A stretch of 64,000 nt of DNA from Asaia lannensis NBRC 102526 (GTDB lineage: Bacteria; Pseudomonadota; Alphaproteobacteria; Acetobacterales; Acetobacteraceae): contig NZ_JAMXQU010000002.1 in the NCBI RefSeq assembly GCF_024054035.1, positions 372,001-436,000 on the forward strand, in the 5' to 3' direction. A program made the translations under genes and the position numbers. Each line of letters starts with the position of its first letter. Position 1 is the stretch's first letter. The notes under the pieces are model-generated. The model was not told the origin of the DNA, searched no databases, and was given only the letters and a program-made list of their open reading frames with translations. Of this stretch, positions 16,002 to 62,800 are shown one piece after another.

Positions 16002-16610
16002 ATGTTTCGTCATCATCTGCGTCATGTGTTCAACCGTCATGACGGATTCGGTCATGGCGGCGGCCATCGGTTTGGCGGTCGTTTCGGGAGGCATCGTGGG
16101 AACGATATTCCCGGTGGCCGCAAGCTGAGCGCCGAGGAATTGCAGCTTGTCATACTGGCGCTTCTGGCTGAGGCGCCCGCGCATGGGTATGAGATCATCC
16201 GCCGCCTTGAGGAGCGCTCGAACGGCTTCTACAAACCAAGCCCCGGCATGGTTTACCCGGCCCTTACCTATCTTGAGGAAATCGGCCAGGCAGAAGTTAC
16301 TCCGGTCGGCACACGCAAGCTCTATACCCTTACCGAACCGGGCCAGGCCCATCTGGCCGCCAACCGTGCCGAAGCGGAGCGCATTCTGGATATCCTCATG
16401 CGCATCGGCAGCCGCATGAGCGAAGTACGCGAGGCTTTTGCCGGGTTGAACGATCTGGACCCCGAGGCTGTGGACGGCCTGCACAAAGCGCGTCATCTAC
16501 TCAAGACCGCACTTTACCGCATGCGCGGTTGCGGGCCCGATGAGGCGCGACGCATCGCAGCCATTCTCCAGCGTGCCGCTGCTGAAATCGCGAAAAAGGA
16601 TCCCGCATGA
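16002..16610 (+). CDS. PadR-family regulator with His-rich N-terminus (YqjI-like)
   Basis: A 202-residue winged-helix regulator. Residues 1-35 are rich in His and Gly (seven His in the first 31), followed by the PadR wHTH (about 41-115: LSAEELQLVILALLAEAPAH, GYEIIRRLEERSNG, SPGMVYPALTYLEEIG) and a C-terminal helical dimerisation region. A His-rich N-tail ahead of a PadR domain next to a siderophore reductase is exactly the E. coli YqjI/YqjH pair, where YqjI senses nickel and iron. Here the two genes are co-directional and overlap by 4 nt instead of being divergent. AGGAGA precedes the ATG. Metal sensing is inferred from the tail and the partner. Confidence 0.85.
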   Translation: MFRHHLRHVFNRHDGFGHGGGHRFGGRFGRHRGNDIPGGRKLSAEELQLVILALLAEAPAHGYEIIRRLEERSNGFYKPSPGMVYPALTYLEEIGQAEVTPVGTRKLYTLTEPGQAHLAANRAEAERILDILMRIGSRMSEVREAFAGLNDLDPEAVDGLHKARHLLKTALYRMRGCGPDEARRIAAILQRAAAEIAKKDPA

Positions 16611-47334: not shown

Positions 47335-47787
47335 TCAGGACAGGCGCGCTTTGACGACAGGGTTCACGCGCCCCATGTCGAGGGCTGAGCCGAACTTCGC
47401 CTTGAGCACACCCATCACCTTGCCCATTTCCTTCATGCTGGTCGCGCCCGCCTCTGCTATGGCAGCGTCGATTTCGGCATTGAGTGTGGCGTCGTCCATT
47501 TCGGGCGGGAGATAGGCCCTGATTGTCTCGATCTCGGCCTCTTCCTTTTCCGCCAGCTCGGGACGGCCACCCTCGCGATACATGGTGGCAGATTCGGTGC
47601 GCGACTTGATCATGCTGCGCAGCATGGGAAGGATATCCTCGTCACCGATTTCCTTGCCATTGGCGCGCGCCGCCACATCCAGATCCTTGATTCGGGCCGT
47701 AATGCCGCGGATCTGGGCCACGCGATCCATTTCCTTCGCCTTCATGGCCGTCTTCAGATCGTTCGAGATCGTCTCTCTCAGGGACAT
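47335..47787 (-). CDS. GatB/YqeY-domain protein
   Basis: A 150-residue protein made of one YqeY domain, related to the C-terminal tRNA-binding domain of GatB (LKTAMKAKEMDRVAQIRGIT, ESATMYREGGRPELAEKEEA, EMGKVMGVLKAKF). YqeY may bind tRNA but its job is unproven. The ATG at 47787 has AGAGGAAAAG upstream; 31 further open codons run into the dyad region and are not supported. Divergent from carA, sharing the control region with it. Confidence 0.9.
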   Translation of the reverse strand: MSLRETISNDLKTAMKAKEMDRVAQIRGITARIKDLDVAARANGKEIGDEDILPMLRSMIKSRTESATMYREGGRPELAEKEEAEIETIRAYLPPEMDDATLNAEIDAAIAEAGATSMKEMGKVMGVLKAKFGSALDMGRVNPVVKARLS

Positions 47788-47821
47788 TGCTTTTCCTCTC
47801 TGTGGCTCGCCCGCCCCGAAA

Positions 47822-47880
47822 TTGGGAATGTTTTTCCCACTCTCAGAACAGTTCTCAGGGAGTGGGAAAAAACTTCCCAA
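47822..47880 (+). promoter_or_regulatory. Twin dyad operators between yqeY and carA
   Basis: TGGGAA-N5-TTCCCA occurs twice, at 47823-47839 and 47863-47879, centres 40 bp apart. Between them AGAAC-A-GTTCT (47845-47855) is a third small dyad, and the whole 59 bp is one imperfect palindrome. It lies 35 bp from the yqeY start and 69 bp from the long carA start. A weak promoter, TTCCCA (47874) and TATCTA (47897) with 17-bp spacing, would place the second site on the -35 box. As RNA the palindrome could also fold into a long hairpin. Binding protein unknown. Confidence 0.75.
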
Positions 47881-47948
47881 TCCTTTCTCAAACGCCTATC
47901 TAGCATCAAGACCACGAGCGTCCGAGAGAAAAGGACGGGAGGATACGC

Positions 47949-49301
47949 ATGGACATCGAAGAGATCATCGAGAAGGCAGGCGGTGCAGAGGCACTGGCCA
48001 GCCTTACCGGCGTCGGCACCGAGGCCATCCGCAAATGGCGGCAGTCGCGCGCCATTCCCGGCAAGCACTGGGCGGCGCTGCTGCGCCTGCCCGGCATTTC
48101 CCTTTCGGACCTCGATCCGCAGACGCCTCAGGAGGAAAATCCGACCATGATAGAGACCTGCCCTGAAGGTGCCAACGCGGCCCTTGTTCTTGCCGACGGT
48201 ACCGTCTTGTGGGGTGTCGGCTTCGGCGCGCACACCGATGGTGCCGCCATTGGCGAGCTTTGCTTCAATACCGGCATGACCGGCTATCAGGAAACGCTCA
48301 CCGATCCGTCTTTTGCCGGTCAGATCGTAACCTTCACTTTTCCCCATATCGGCAATGTCGGCACGAATGCCGAGGATGACGAGGCCCAGCGCGTGGCCGC
48401 ACGCGGTGTGGTGGTCAAGGAAGACGTGACACTGCCTGCCAACTGGCGCGCCACCGAAAAGCTGGCACAGTGGATGATCGGCCATAATCTGCCGGGCATT
48501 GCAGGCATCGATACACGCCTGATCACCCGTCGCCTGCGCGATGGCGGCCCCCAGACGGCTGTTCTTGCTTTCCCGAAAGATCGCCAGTTCGATCTCGCCG
48601 CCCTGCGTGCCCAGGCCGTTTCATGGCCGGGGCTGGAAGGCATGGATCTGGCCAAGGACGTGACCTGCAGCCAGAGCTTCACCTGGGATCTGGGCGTTTG
48701 GCAGAAGCCTGCCGTAGAGCGCAGCACGCGCCGTCGTGTGGTGGCGGTCGATTACGGCGCCAAGCGCAACATCCTGCGCTGCCTTGTCACCGCAGGCTGC
48801 GACGTGACCGTGGTGCCTGCGACCGCAACGGCGGAAGAGATCCTGCGCCACAACCCGGAAGGCGTGTTCCTTTCCAACGGTCCCGGCGATCCGGCTGCAA
48901 CCGGCGTTTATGCCGTGCCTGCCATCAAGGGCGTGCTGGATGCGAATATTCCCGTTTTCGGGATCTGCCTCGGCCATCAGCTTCTGGCGCAGGCACTGGG
49001 AGCAAAAACCTACAAGCTCGAGCGCGGCCATCGCGGCGCCAACCAGCCGGTCAAGGATCTCGCTTCGGGTCGCGTGGAAATCACCAGCCAGAATCACGGC
49101 TTTGCAGTCGATGACAAATCCCTGCCTGAAGACGTGATCATCACCCATACCAGCCTGTTCGACGGCTCGAACGAGGGCATACGCAGCACGAAGCTGGACG
49201 CCTTCTCGGTTCAGTATCACCCCGAGGCCAGCCCTGGCCCGTCGGATTCATTCTATCTTTTCGAGCGTTTCGTCGCGCTCATGGACAAGAAGGCAGCCTG
49301 A
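47949..49301 (+). CDS. carA: Carbamoyl-phosphate synthase small subunit with extra N-terminal HTH-like domain
   Basis: From the internal ATG at 48147 the product is a normal 384-residue CarA: swivelling N-domain, class I glutamine amidotransferase with nucleophile Cys (FGICLGHQLL, residue 340 of the long form) and the His/Glu pair in QYHPEA. It makes ammonia for CarB. The open frame begins 66 codons earlier with a small helix-turn-helix-like sequence (GGAEALASLTGVGTEAIRKW, RAIPGKHWAALLRL). Both starts have ribosome sites: GGGAGGA 5 nt before 47949 and AGGAGG 11 nt before 48147. A +1 shift would end the HTH frame at TGA overlapping the internal ATG, so an indel joining two genes is possible. 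Confidence 0.92.
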   Translation: MDIEEIIEKAGGAEALASLTGVGTEAIRKWRQSRAIPGKHWAALLRLPGISLSDLDPQTPQEENPTMIETCPEGANAALVLADGTVLWGVGFGAHTDGAAIGELCFNTGMTGYQETLTDPSFAGQIVTFTFPHIGNVGTNAEDDEAQRVAARGVVVKEDVTLPANWRATEKLAQWMIGHNLPGIAGIDTRLITRRLRDGGPQTAVLAFPKDRQFDLAALRAQAVSWPGLEGMDLAKDVTCSQSFTWDLGVWQKPAVERSTRRRVVAVDYGAKRNILRCLVTAGCDVTVVPATATAEEILRHNPEGVFLSNGPGDPAATGVYAVPAIKGVLDANIPVFGICLGHQLLAQALGAKTYKLERGHRGANQPVKDLASGRVEITSQNHGFAVDDKSLPEDVIITHTSLFDGSNEGIRSTKLDAFSVQYHPEASPGPSDSFYLFERFVALMDKKAA

Positions 49302-49304
49302 TCC

Positions 49305-52559
<3,255 letters not shown>

Positions 52560-59872: not shown

Positions 59873-62800
59873 TCAGGCTACCGGTTCGGCGGTATAGCTC
59901 GCCTCTACAGCCGCATAGGCATGCTGCACGACAGCCTCGGTGACCGCCTCATGTCGGACGGCCGTAATGATCCCGTCCTTGACACTCACGACCACATCCA
60001 GCGGCTTGATGCCAACCAGCTCGCCGACCGTATTGACCAGACACAGACGGTACGCCCCTTCCATCTCGGCCGCATAACCGGAGGTAATGGAAAGCCATCC
60101 TTCGAACCCGACACAGAGGGGGGCATCGTCAAAGATCGTTTTCACATCATGACGCAGGAAACGGCTGAGCGCGAAGAAAAACGCGTCGTTGGTCCCCTCG
60201 CCCACCAGAGCGACCGACATGCTACCCGCACGCTCGAGATGACGCAGGAAACCCCATCCACGGATGAAAAGATTTCCATCGTCGGTCAGCAAAGGCGCCG
60301 GATCGCCGATCAGGCCGCTCAGGGAGTCGATGTAATGCTGGAAATCGTTGTCGGCACGATGCACGGATCCGGCACGATGCAGACGATCGCGCTTGATACC
60401 GCGCAAATGACCGTCGGCGTGGGAGACGCGAACGAAGTCGCGCATGATCTGATCGTTCGACGGGCGCCCGACCTGGATTTCGTCGATCTTGCCACCCTCG
60501 ACCGAGATCTCGACCGAGGTCACCATGAAGGCACCCGCCCCATTGACGATATTGACGAGCGCCACACGGAACCGGCCTTCGCACCATTTGCCACGCAGAG
60601 CCGCCTGGCCTGCAAAACCCGACCGACGCGGCGCATTGGGGTAGCTCGAAAGCACATCACCACGTGCTTCGCGGACGCATGGCAGGAAAATCATCGGCGT
60701 GTTGTCGTCGCCGATAAGCACGGCATACATCGATCCCGCCGAACTCACCCCCGGCAGCACATGCCAGCCGCGGATATGGAATTCGTACGATCCGGCGAAA
60801 TCCTCAGGCTCGTTTTCAGCGAATACGAAGTGACAGACGTCGTCGATATAATATTCGGCGCCCTGGATCGCGTACCAGTCCGATACCGGTTCGGGCAATT
60901 CTACCGAGAGATCGCGGATGGTCGGCGGATCGAAGATATGACGCGGCGGCGCCTGATGGCGCCATGAAGCATGCGGCAGAAGGTGAACCTGACCGGCATC
61001 GATCTGCATCTCTGCCGTACCGAGCTCGCGTACAGGCGCAGCCTCGCGATAGACGTCGCGCATGTCATTGGCGTAGGCATCGGCCTGGGTCCACAGAGCG
61101 GGCGAGATATTGCCCATGATTTCGCGCCGGATACCTTCGGAAGACCGAAGCAGCTCGAGACGTTCAAGCACCATATTGGCGCGGCCGATCGGCACCTTGA
61201 ATCCGTTGACGCCATCCCTGACGCGGTCGCCCAGCGCACCGACATCGGTCACGATAGGAATAAGGCCGTTCTGCCAGGCTTCGGACAGCGAGATGCAATA
61301 GGTTTCGGGCCAGATGGACAGATTGAGCGCCACATCGGCCACCTGGAGGGCCGCAATGTCGCCCGCGGAATAGCGTCCGTAAACCTTCACATTAGGCCGC
61401 GGCTTGCCGTTGATGACCGCGTCGTATTCCGGGTGGATATAGCCGAAGATATGAAACTCGAAATGATCGGGATGCGCGATCTCGATCAGATTGAGAATGG
61501 TATCGGCCCCCTTCGTGCGCAGGAAATTGCCGACAATCGCGACCTTGAGCGGCCGCTCACCGAGCGGCTCATAGGCTTTCGGCACGATGGGAATGGTGTT
61601 CTCAGGCGAAGGAATACCGAGGATCAGGCTGCTTTTCTGATCCAGGATCGGATAGATCTCATGGGTCAGATTGCGCGAATGCTCCGTGCCGAACAGGATC
61701 AGATCCACCGAATGCAACATCTTGGCAATGAAGGCGCGACGCGTCTGTTCGCCACCATATTCGATATTCTCGGCAACCTTGAGAATGATGTCGCTGGCAA
61801 CCACCGACTTCACTTCATCTTCGATATAACGAAGGTCCTGGTTAAGCAGGTTGTAGCGCGAAGAAATCAGCCAGAAATCATGGGCAGAGAAAACGACACC
61901 CGCACCGCAGGCCTTTGCGATGATCGGCAGCGACAGCGCGTGATGGCCGAGATGCTGGAAATGGACGATATCGAAATTGTACTGGCTGATCGCATTCGAG
62001 AATGCCATTTCCTCCGGGCCGTCGCACATCGCGTCCATCCAGCCCACTTCCGGCACATCGTAACGTTCGACTTCCTGCCCGTTGGCGGTGGTGAGACGGC
62101 AATGCGGACCACGACGCAACCAGTAGAAAAATTCGATCTCGCGCCCCAGCATCGAGCACAAGGTCTGCTGATAGACTTCGACCCCGCCCCATGCAGCTTC
62201 GTGAATGGTCGAATGCGTGCACATCAGAACGCGCAGACGACGGCGACGCGGGGCCAGTTCGGTCCCCGGACGGGTGCGTCCGAAATTGGCCTTGGTCACT
62301 TCAGCCATATAGCGCAGGCGATGTTCGTAAAGATGGCCTTCCAGAACGGATCCCTGCCCGGCGAGCGCCGCATTGCGACGCAGCTCACGATCGCTCAGAA
62401 GAGCGGCGACGGCACTGACGACACCATCGACATCCCGCGCAAGAAATGTACCTTCGATCTCGGCGAAATATTTGGTGTCCATGCTTTCAGGCGCTTCGAC
62501 CACCTGCGCCGCACCGGCCAGGGCCAGTTCGTAGAAACGCGGCCCCGGCGCTGTCGCCTGACTGACATCGCCATGGCTGGCATAATCGCGGAACATGGTA
62601 AGCGTCACGGCGCTGGCATTAGCGAAATCGATGAACGCCTCATGGCTCACAGGGCGCTGTATGGCCAGTTCTGCCAGATCGGCAGGAAGCGGCGGCAGAT
62701 ATTCGTTACCCGGGCAGATCAGCTTGAGACGGGCCTTGGGGAAAGCTGCGATGATACGACGCAGCGTTTCAACACGATTGGGCCACATCGTGCCGGCAAA

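Follow-up and report, generated by a model that had tools for sequence, protein, structure and literature searches.

Several enzymes, among them BirA and NadR, repress the genes that encode them. PutA is described in PMC5293562 as a metabolic enzyme whose N-terminal DNA-binding domain represses its own gene. HTH-CarA, the protein considered here, carries a helix-turn-helix (HTH) domain in front of the small subunit of carbamoyl-phosphate synthase, and it resembles PutA in having an enzyme-borne N-terminal domain and, probably, in repressing itself. The two differ in that PutA, the trifunctional proline utilization A protein, is catabolic with a ribbon-helix-helix domain, whereas in HTH-CarA a Cro-like HTH is joined to a glutamine amidotransferase subunit of a biosynthetic enzyme, and its promoter contains twin operators at a near-fixed spacing. 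Phage Cro proteins use palindromic operators, and the CarA HTH is predicted to share the fold of the Xfaso 1, N15 and P22 type of Cro. Cro is a stand-alone phage switch, however, whereas the CarA domain is enzyme-borne and accompanied by GGGAA half-sites.

To our knowledge, little has been established about how carbamoyl phosphate synthesis is controlled beyond the well-studied models. In E. coli, ArgR takes part in the control of carAB. Control there is also described for the trigger enzymes PepA and PyrH and for PurR and RutR (PMC6245113), such that enzymes participate in that system too, but in E. coli the promoter is the target of proteins other than CarA, whereas here CarA itself bears a DNA-binding-type domain. 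The CarA N-terminal domain lies well above the cut-off of model NF046037 "carph-isopro", a model that names the domain but, in the output obtained, states no function for it; searches of open-access papers turned up neither that name nor any description of an HTH-CarA fusion. Self-repressing enzymes are already known, and HTH-CarA may be the earliest recognized example of a broad class. With a compact and predictable operator, an entire bacterial family appears to build the regulator into the enzyme.

Twin dyads upstream of carA in Asaia lannensis

The window, meaning the whole 64,000-nucleotide stretch of Asaia lannensis NBRC 102526 that was analyzed, contains two TGGGAA-N5-TTCCCA dyads, at 47823-47839 (TGGGAATGTTTTTCCCA) and 47863-47879 (TGGGAAAAAACTTCCCA), 40 bp apart from start to start. 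The initial annotation had described twin identical 17-bp dyads at this spacing, and only its range was off, by at most one base at each end. The following features were assigned.

47335..47787, minus strand: yqeY, divergent neighbor of carA
47823..47839, no strand: predicted carA-distal operator, TGGGAA-N5-TTCCCA; genome-unique motif, conserved twin site
47863..47879, no strand: predicted carA-proximal operator, TGGGAA-N5-TTCCCA; its right half-site, TTCCCA, probably serves as the -35
47874..47879, plus strand: predicted carA -35, TTCCCA, within the proximal operator; TTCCCA-N17-TATCTA is kept in the Asaia group
47897..47902, plus strand: predicted carA -10, TATCTA; TATCTAGCA is conserved across the Asaia group
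47937..47943, plus strand: Shine-Dalgarno-like GGGAGGA for the HTH-CarA start, from the sequence; SD-like in 54/65 long-leader-class promoters
47949..49301, plus strand: HTH-CarA fusion, 450 aa, Cro-like HTH and carbamoyl-phosphate synthase small subunit
47949..48116, plus strand: Cro-like HTH domain, residues 1-56, from profile matches, predicted structure and NF046037 (65.6 bits)
48130..48149, plus strand: internal AGGAGGA and ATG (48147-48149), possible second start; pattern kept in the genus
49305..52559, plus strand: presumed carB, large subunit, 1084-aa ORF, downstream of carA in the same direction

The last of these, 49305..52559, we take to be carB from its own sequence and position. 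Among the matches listed, the closest named relative was Asaia prunellae, with 96% across the HTH and the start of CarA.

Exact TGGGAA-N5-TTCCCA occurs in the whole 3.22-Mb genome as these two copies only, against about 0.15 matches per 3.22 Mb expected from the base composition of the window, and the same composition gives a chance expectation of about 4e-7 for pairs no more than 60 bp apart. With up to two mismatches the window holds 4 matches versus 2.0 expected, and such loose matches are therefore uninformative by themselves. Single one-mismatch copies also lie at window positions 16097-16113 and 61588-61604. The pair also makes up the two arms of an extended, imperfect inverted repeat (47821-47847 and 47855-47881, 85% complementary). 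A third small dyad reported in the initial annotation, AGAAC-A-GTTCT (47845-47855), is present but unconserved in 11 aligned related promoters; it was rejected as a functional site on that ground and is most likely due to chance.

The internal AGGAGGA-ATG, judged by its sequence, could possibly yield an HTH-less CarA product. An internal ATG or GTG with an SD-like sequence is kept in loci of the genus and is absent or weak in several other genera, in a survey whose search pattern missed the core in five loci. The internal start was accordingly rejected as a family-wide device.

CarA carries a predicted Cro-like domain

The enzyme portion of the fusion contains PF00988 and PF00117 domains, scores 448.8 bits against TIGR01368 (cut-off 307.35) and matches E. 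coli CarA structures at E 2e-119. Residues C340, H424 and E426, which we take to be the class-I amidotransferase catalytic residues, are invariant in 35 aligned sequences, and the CarA core is intact. The N-terminal 56-residue domain exceeds the cut-off of NCBIfam NF046037 "carph-isopro" (65.6 bits versus 38). It falls outside the Cro-type HTH families by the curated Pfam sequence cut-offs, matching YdaS_toxin at 21.8 bits (gathering cut-off 30) and P22_Cro at 17.2 bits (30.2), and all 24 members of the A1 set match both models at E <=0.1.

A profile search of the PDB with the HTH domain gave four best matches that were all Cro-type. Modeled alone, the domain has five helices at a pLDDT of 91.5 and falls into the Cro fold, with a predicted recognition helix at residues 24-33 (TEAIRKWRQS); the full HTH-CarA model has a low-confidence linker around residues 56-70. 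Foldseek rows 1-8 were N15 Cro, Xfaso 1 Cro and one Xfaso 1 hybrid (E 0.015-0.06, probability 1.00), the top match being the N15 Cro-operator complex, and no match reached E 0.001 or better. VIA-align ranked Xfaso 1 Cro first (Z 9.3, 1.8 A, 60 residues) and the enzyme MPnS second and third (Z 7.2); HppE also shares the fold. The CarA HTH is thus predicted from the models to have a phage Cro fold. By itself the domain proves nothing, because MPnS and HppE share the fold and the membrane-type loci described below mostly lack twin sites.

A phage origin of the domain was considered and set aside: no match to the HTH domain was found by tblastn at E 0.1 in 50,697 phage records, and PHROG repressor matches were weak. 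The initial annotation had proposed a dimeric repressor, with autoregulation either by the long form of CarA or by a small regulator from which it derived; conservation and co-loss (below) support the former, and a small regulator that might be its ancestor was not found in these phage and PHROG searches. Elsewhere in the genome of the window, the HTH profile matches weakly once more (E 1.4e-4) on contig C9, in a phage-like stretch (L400, 85-964) that holds a small, distant, phage-like Cro-type protein and a 272-aa frame, the end of which matches the profile weakly.

The motif tracks with HTH-carA

The exact motif was scanned in 60 genomes, comprising the window genome, 8 of the same genus, 27 further members of the family and 24 genomes of the class outside the family. 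It was found in the window genome, in 8/8 of the genus, in 20/27 of the further family genomes (in one of which, G023, it lies away from carA) and in 3/24 of the class genomes outside the family. The concern raised in the initial annotation that the motif might be common genome-wide did not materialize: both exact copies in the window genome are at carA, and a reversed-motif control matched in 1/60 genomes. Among loci L001-L031, the motif lies just upstream of an HTH-carA frame in all but L013 and L031, which have the motif without HTH or carA and were set aside; the motif loci of G036 and G038 lay outside this comparison. Sites are retained in L015, L021 and L026 though yqeY is at least 600 bp away. 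Follow-up of G023 and of the seven family genomes in which no exact motif was seen showed one-mismatch sites at the equivalent carA position in G009, G010, G021, G023 and G033. The site of G031 has diverged to GCGGAA...TTCCGG, the G034 contig breaks off within carA, and no carA was found in G027.

A named set was made from the best 80 carA loci of a longer list, 36 with the HTH and 44 without. The 44 HTH-less loci include many sphingomonads, Ruegeria and other MAGs, a few with a short upstream stretch. A site with at most two mismatches was present within 300 bp in 33/36 HTH-carA loci versus 0/44 HTH-less loci (Fisher p ~2e-19, relatedness ignored). The three exceptions, L109 (Acidocella aquatica), L112 and L113, have diverged palindromes with C/G-rich edges at similar positions. 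One locus, L079, was counted as HTH (98.2 bits, exact site) despite a frameshift. In the draft sequences L079, L008, L009 and L237 the reading frame of carA is interrupted past the HTH, either through sequencing error or because the gene is a pseudogene.

The HTH profile matched 207/220 family genomes at E 1e-6, 205 of them with a single copy of the domain (E <=1e-6). The 13 family genomes without a match comprise 3 with HTH-less carA, 6 with no carA match and 4 in which carA is cut by a contig end. No site within two mismatches remains in the three HTH losses, G421 and G504 of one genus and G595 of another. We conclude that two lineages lost the operator along with the HTH.

Removal of duplicates by sequence reduced 239 HTH promoters to 210 distinct ones. 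CarA is in frame with the HTH in 208/210 of these loci, the others being L185, which ends at a contig edge, and L237, which has an apparent frameshift. The best site had 0 mismatches in 139 promoters, 1 in 49, 2 in 9, 3 in 6 and 4 in 7; a control motif, AAGGGT-N5-ACCCTT, was never found with fewer than 3 mismatches across the 210. Scoring with a symmetric weight matrix that had been derived from these 210 promoters themselves placed a first site above the 99% shuffled-promoter null in 210/210 and a second in 204/210, leaving 6/210 HTH promoters without a second site above that level. The two sites were 37-40 bp apart in 164 of the 204, 43-44 bp in 14, 48-50 bp in 11, 82 bp in one and at other spacings in 14. 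The initial annotation had staked its proposal on conservation of the motif before carA in HTH-bearing relatives. Such conservation was observed in 33/36 named HTH-carA loci and, by weight matrix, in all 210 distinct HTH promoters, and the absence of the motif from the 44 HTH-less carA loci indicates that it tracks with HTH-carA.

Strong A1 profile matches (E <=3e-24) occurred in 5 of 385 class genomes, all of them family members, and HTH-CarA was not found among these genomes outside the family; the next-best A1 match was at E 2e-10. Among 29 loci (L041-L069) drawn from 50 listed class matches, 20 of which were left out, four were family members and the other 25 had no CarA match. One-mismatch motif matches numbered 65 in 11 genomes, carA sites included, versus 32 for the reversed control, and 8 versus 0 in the genome of the window. 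HTH-CarA may have a small regulon beyond carA. As a candidate, such a regulon was unsupported, the one-mismatch matches elsewhere being not far above the reversed control.

A recognition-helix residue covaries with the half-site

Residues R28, K29, W30 and R31 of the HTH are invariant in 35 sequences; in a larger set R31 is replaced by K in four and R28 by K in one, and residue 32 is mostly Q. Position 2 of the half-site is C in 8/9 promoters with S or A at residue 32 versus 6/199 with other residues (Fisher p 3e-10, relatedness ignored). The counter-cases are the S32 genome L208, which keeps TGGGAA, and the six genomes that are C-type without S/A32. We conclude that the change of residue 32 from Q to S/A goes with a change from G to C at position 2, a covariation that lies partly in one clade and for which the underlying tree is weak. 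Such natural pairs of half-site and recognition helix could be used for studying how Cro-type specificity evolves.

The predicted proximal operator overlaps the predicted core promoter

In 91/210 promoters the proximal operator starts at -29 from the ATG. In this class the -35 region has T in 100% at -35, T in 93% at -34 and G in 95% at -33, and the -10 region has T in 63% at -12, A in 100% at -11 and T in 68% at -10, followed by C in 90% at -1. This base conservation places the 17-bp operator exactly over the 17-bp spacer of a predicted promoter, flanked by a TTG -35 on one side and a TAT-like -10 on the other, and transcription would start near the ATG. Where the proximal site starts at -32 to -27, TTG is found exactly at the corresponding place in 126/141. 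Moreover, an SD-like stretch is missing in 131/145 promoters with a proximal site at -32 to -27 and present in 54/65 others. Initiation in the -29 class may therefore be leaderless, as judged by these sequence features.

A second, long-leader class includes Asaia, Gluconobacter, Acetobacter and Komagataeibacter. By eye, many of its promoters have TTCCCA of the proximal operator, about 17 bp and then a TATCTAG-like element. The overlap of one site with a possible carA -35, suggested in the initial annotation, fits this arrangement, as TTCCCA (47874-47879), 17 bp and TATCTA (47897-47902) follow one another in the window and are kept in the genus. The main text of a Gluconobacter start-site paper (PMC5756330) does not name carA.

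HTH-CarA as a probable autogenous repressor of carAB

The sites, their conservation, their co-occurrence and joint loss with the HTH, the promoter geometry and the predicted Cro fold were computed directly. A DNA-binding-type domain, as its predicted fold suggests, and the enzyme lie in one polypeptide (an open frame in the window and in 208/210 loci), and a predicted operator lies in the promoter of the enzyme itself. These sequences and models make it very probable that HTH-CarA is an autogenous repressor of carAB and that the twin 17-bp dyads are its operators. The dimerized HTH of CarA, either alone or as part of the CarA-CarB holoenzyme, would bind the proximal operator. In most sampled family promoters that operator occupies the -35/-10 spacer, and in Asaia and other acetic acid bacteria it is at the -35. 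A second HTH pair would occupy the distal operator, usually 37-40 bp upstream, probably cooperatively. Bound HTH would exclude RNA polymerase from the carAB promoter, such that the level of the enzyme would feed back on its own synthesis, and ligands or the oligomeric state might adjust this feedback.

The spacing of the sites hints at cooperative binding or looping. Since the preferred distance of 38-39 bp corresponds to about 3.7 turns, simple contact on the same face of the helix would not be required. A carbamoyl-phosphate synthase oligomer presenting two HTH pairs would fit the spacing, as a speculation. According to PMC6245113, the E. coli enzyme is found mostly as alpha-beta heterodimers when UMP is present, whereas with ornithine it is tetrameric. 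Because these oligomer states give no obvious sign to a feedback signal, plain control by the amount of enzyme is the simplest guess.

The sites could instead be bound by a stand-alone regulator, with the HTH of CarA having a structural or protein-contact role. Some other proteins with a domain of this family lack twin sites, folds of the kind are embedded in other enzymes and small Cro-type proteins are present in the genome. We nonetheless consider a separate regulator unlikely, as HTH and operator were lost jointly in two lineages, no HTH-less carA locus (0/44) has the sites, the half-site goes with a residue of the recognition helix, and 205/207 family genomes have one copy of the domain (E <=1e-6). 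An equivalent layout with other half-sites at HisZ and ArgB fusions (below) also speaks against it.

Two readings concern the action of the sites. The position of the proximal site, covering the spacer or the -35, is that of a repressor, and sites are kept where yqeY is at least 600 bp away (L015, L021, L026); both points make it very improbable that HTH-CarA binds but activates, or that it switches both yqeY and carA, even though the sites lie between the divergent genes in most of loci L001-L031 and the distal site of the window occupies the stretch 36-52 bp ahead of the start of yqeY. The initial annotation had itself raised the prospect that the palindrome acts only as an RNA hairpin, as in an attenuator or terminator, and the long inverted repeat that spans both sites in this genome would suit one. 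A hairpin is scarcely credible, because the sites overlap or precede the predicted core promoter and would thus be missing from the carA transcript; furthermore, the sequence between the sites is unconserved, whereas the half-site sequence is conserved beyond mere pairing. We conclude that repression of carAB by HTH-CarA best accounts for the twin sites.

Related domains head other biosynthetic enzymes

Autogenous repression of the kind proposed for HTH-CarA may extend to other proteins with the domain. NF046037 matched 91/385 class genomes at E 1e-5 and was above its cut-off in 73. In the fetched loci, by NCBIfam, the domain heads HisZ-like, ArgB, PyrB, SerA, GlmU and CoaBC proteins, as well as NAD(P)H-hydrate epimerase/dehydratase and crotonyl-CoA carboxylase/reductase, and it also heads a dehydrogenase E1 protein, identified separately; the NF046037 match is below the cut-off in some fusions, and the HisZ models pass in L359 and fail in L361 and L365. 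By eye, many NF046037 matches outside the family of the window, in loci L323-L349 (minus L346), head membrane-anchored-looking proteins, mostly without twin sites, and one membrane-type locus that was scanned, L328, gave a Mitofilin match.

HTH-HisZ fusions occur in 15/18 genomes of one alphaproteobacterial family. Two TTCAT-N5-ATGAA sites exactly 39 bp apart are present in 15/15 of these loci (L371-L385) within the 250 bp upstream that were searched; 29/30 sites are exact, several of the 15 genomes being close relatives. In another family, 4/4 genomes with HTH-ArgB (L396-L399) show a pair of sites, one at -58 and one at -24, with TTACT-type half-sites at 0 or 1 mismatch in three and, by eye, TTGCG-type half-sites at both places in L399.

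A twin-site statistic was calculated for 22 loci (L351-L370, L346 and L350, seven of them membrane-type) and for 25 further membrane-type loci, with p values per locus and uncorrected for the number of tests. The statistic missed the known Asaia sites because only 120 bp was examined. It gave p values of 0.035 and 0.010 for HisZ (L360 and L361), 0.005 and 0.015 for ArgB (L362 and L363) and 0.010 for L370. It was not significant for HisZ L359 and L365 (0.65 and 0.16), NnrD (0.27 and 0.25), SerA (0.51), PDH E1 (0.12), CoaBC (0.83), PyrB (0.43), GlmU (0.97) and CCR (0.99). The seven membrane-type loci gave 0.065 to 0.87, and among the 25 further ones a single locus was at 0.005 and none else was below 0.05.

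A twin-operator layout at the HisZ and ArgB fusions thus has good support from the upstream sequences, and its recurrence there suggests a general class of self-repressing biosynthetic proteins. We think it fairly probable that Alphaproteobacteria use an undescribed general design in which a Cro-like HTH fronts CarA, HisZ, ArgB and perhaps PyrB, SerA, NAD(P)H-hydrate repair and other proteins, each with a twin operator (34-40 bp) in its own promoter and each repressing itself without a separate regulator, the domain having been repeatedly captured and re-specified. If true for the histidine and arginine genes of other alphaproteobacterial families, this would be a new and testable mode of metabolic feedback.

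Further palindromes were seen near related fusions. Upstream of the HTH-NAD(P)H-hydrate epimerase/dehydratase gene of L346, a perfect 17-bp GTACGT-N5-ACGTAC lies at -29 from the ATG, the position of the carA operator in many genomes, and the relative L351 has a partial palindrome. TTGCG-N5-CGCAA-like palindromes lie upstream of HTH-PyrB (aspartate carbamoyltransferase) in L367, L386 and L387. Finally, L370 encodes an 80-aa protein with an HTH-like domain and no enzyme, preceded by two CGCAAA-type palindromes, and is a possible stand-alone member.
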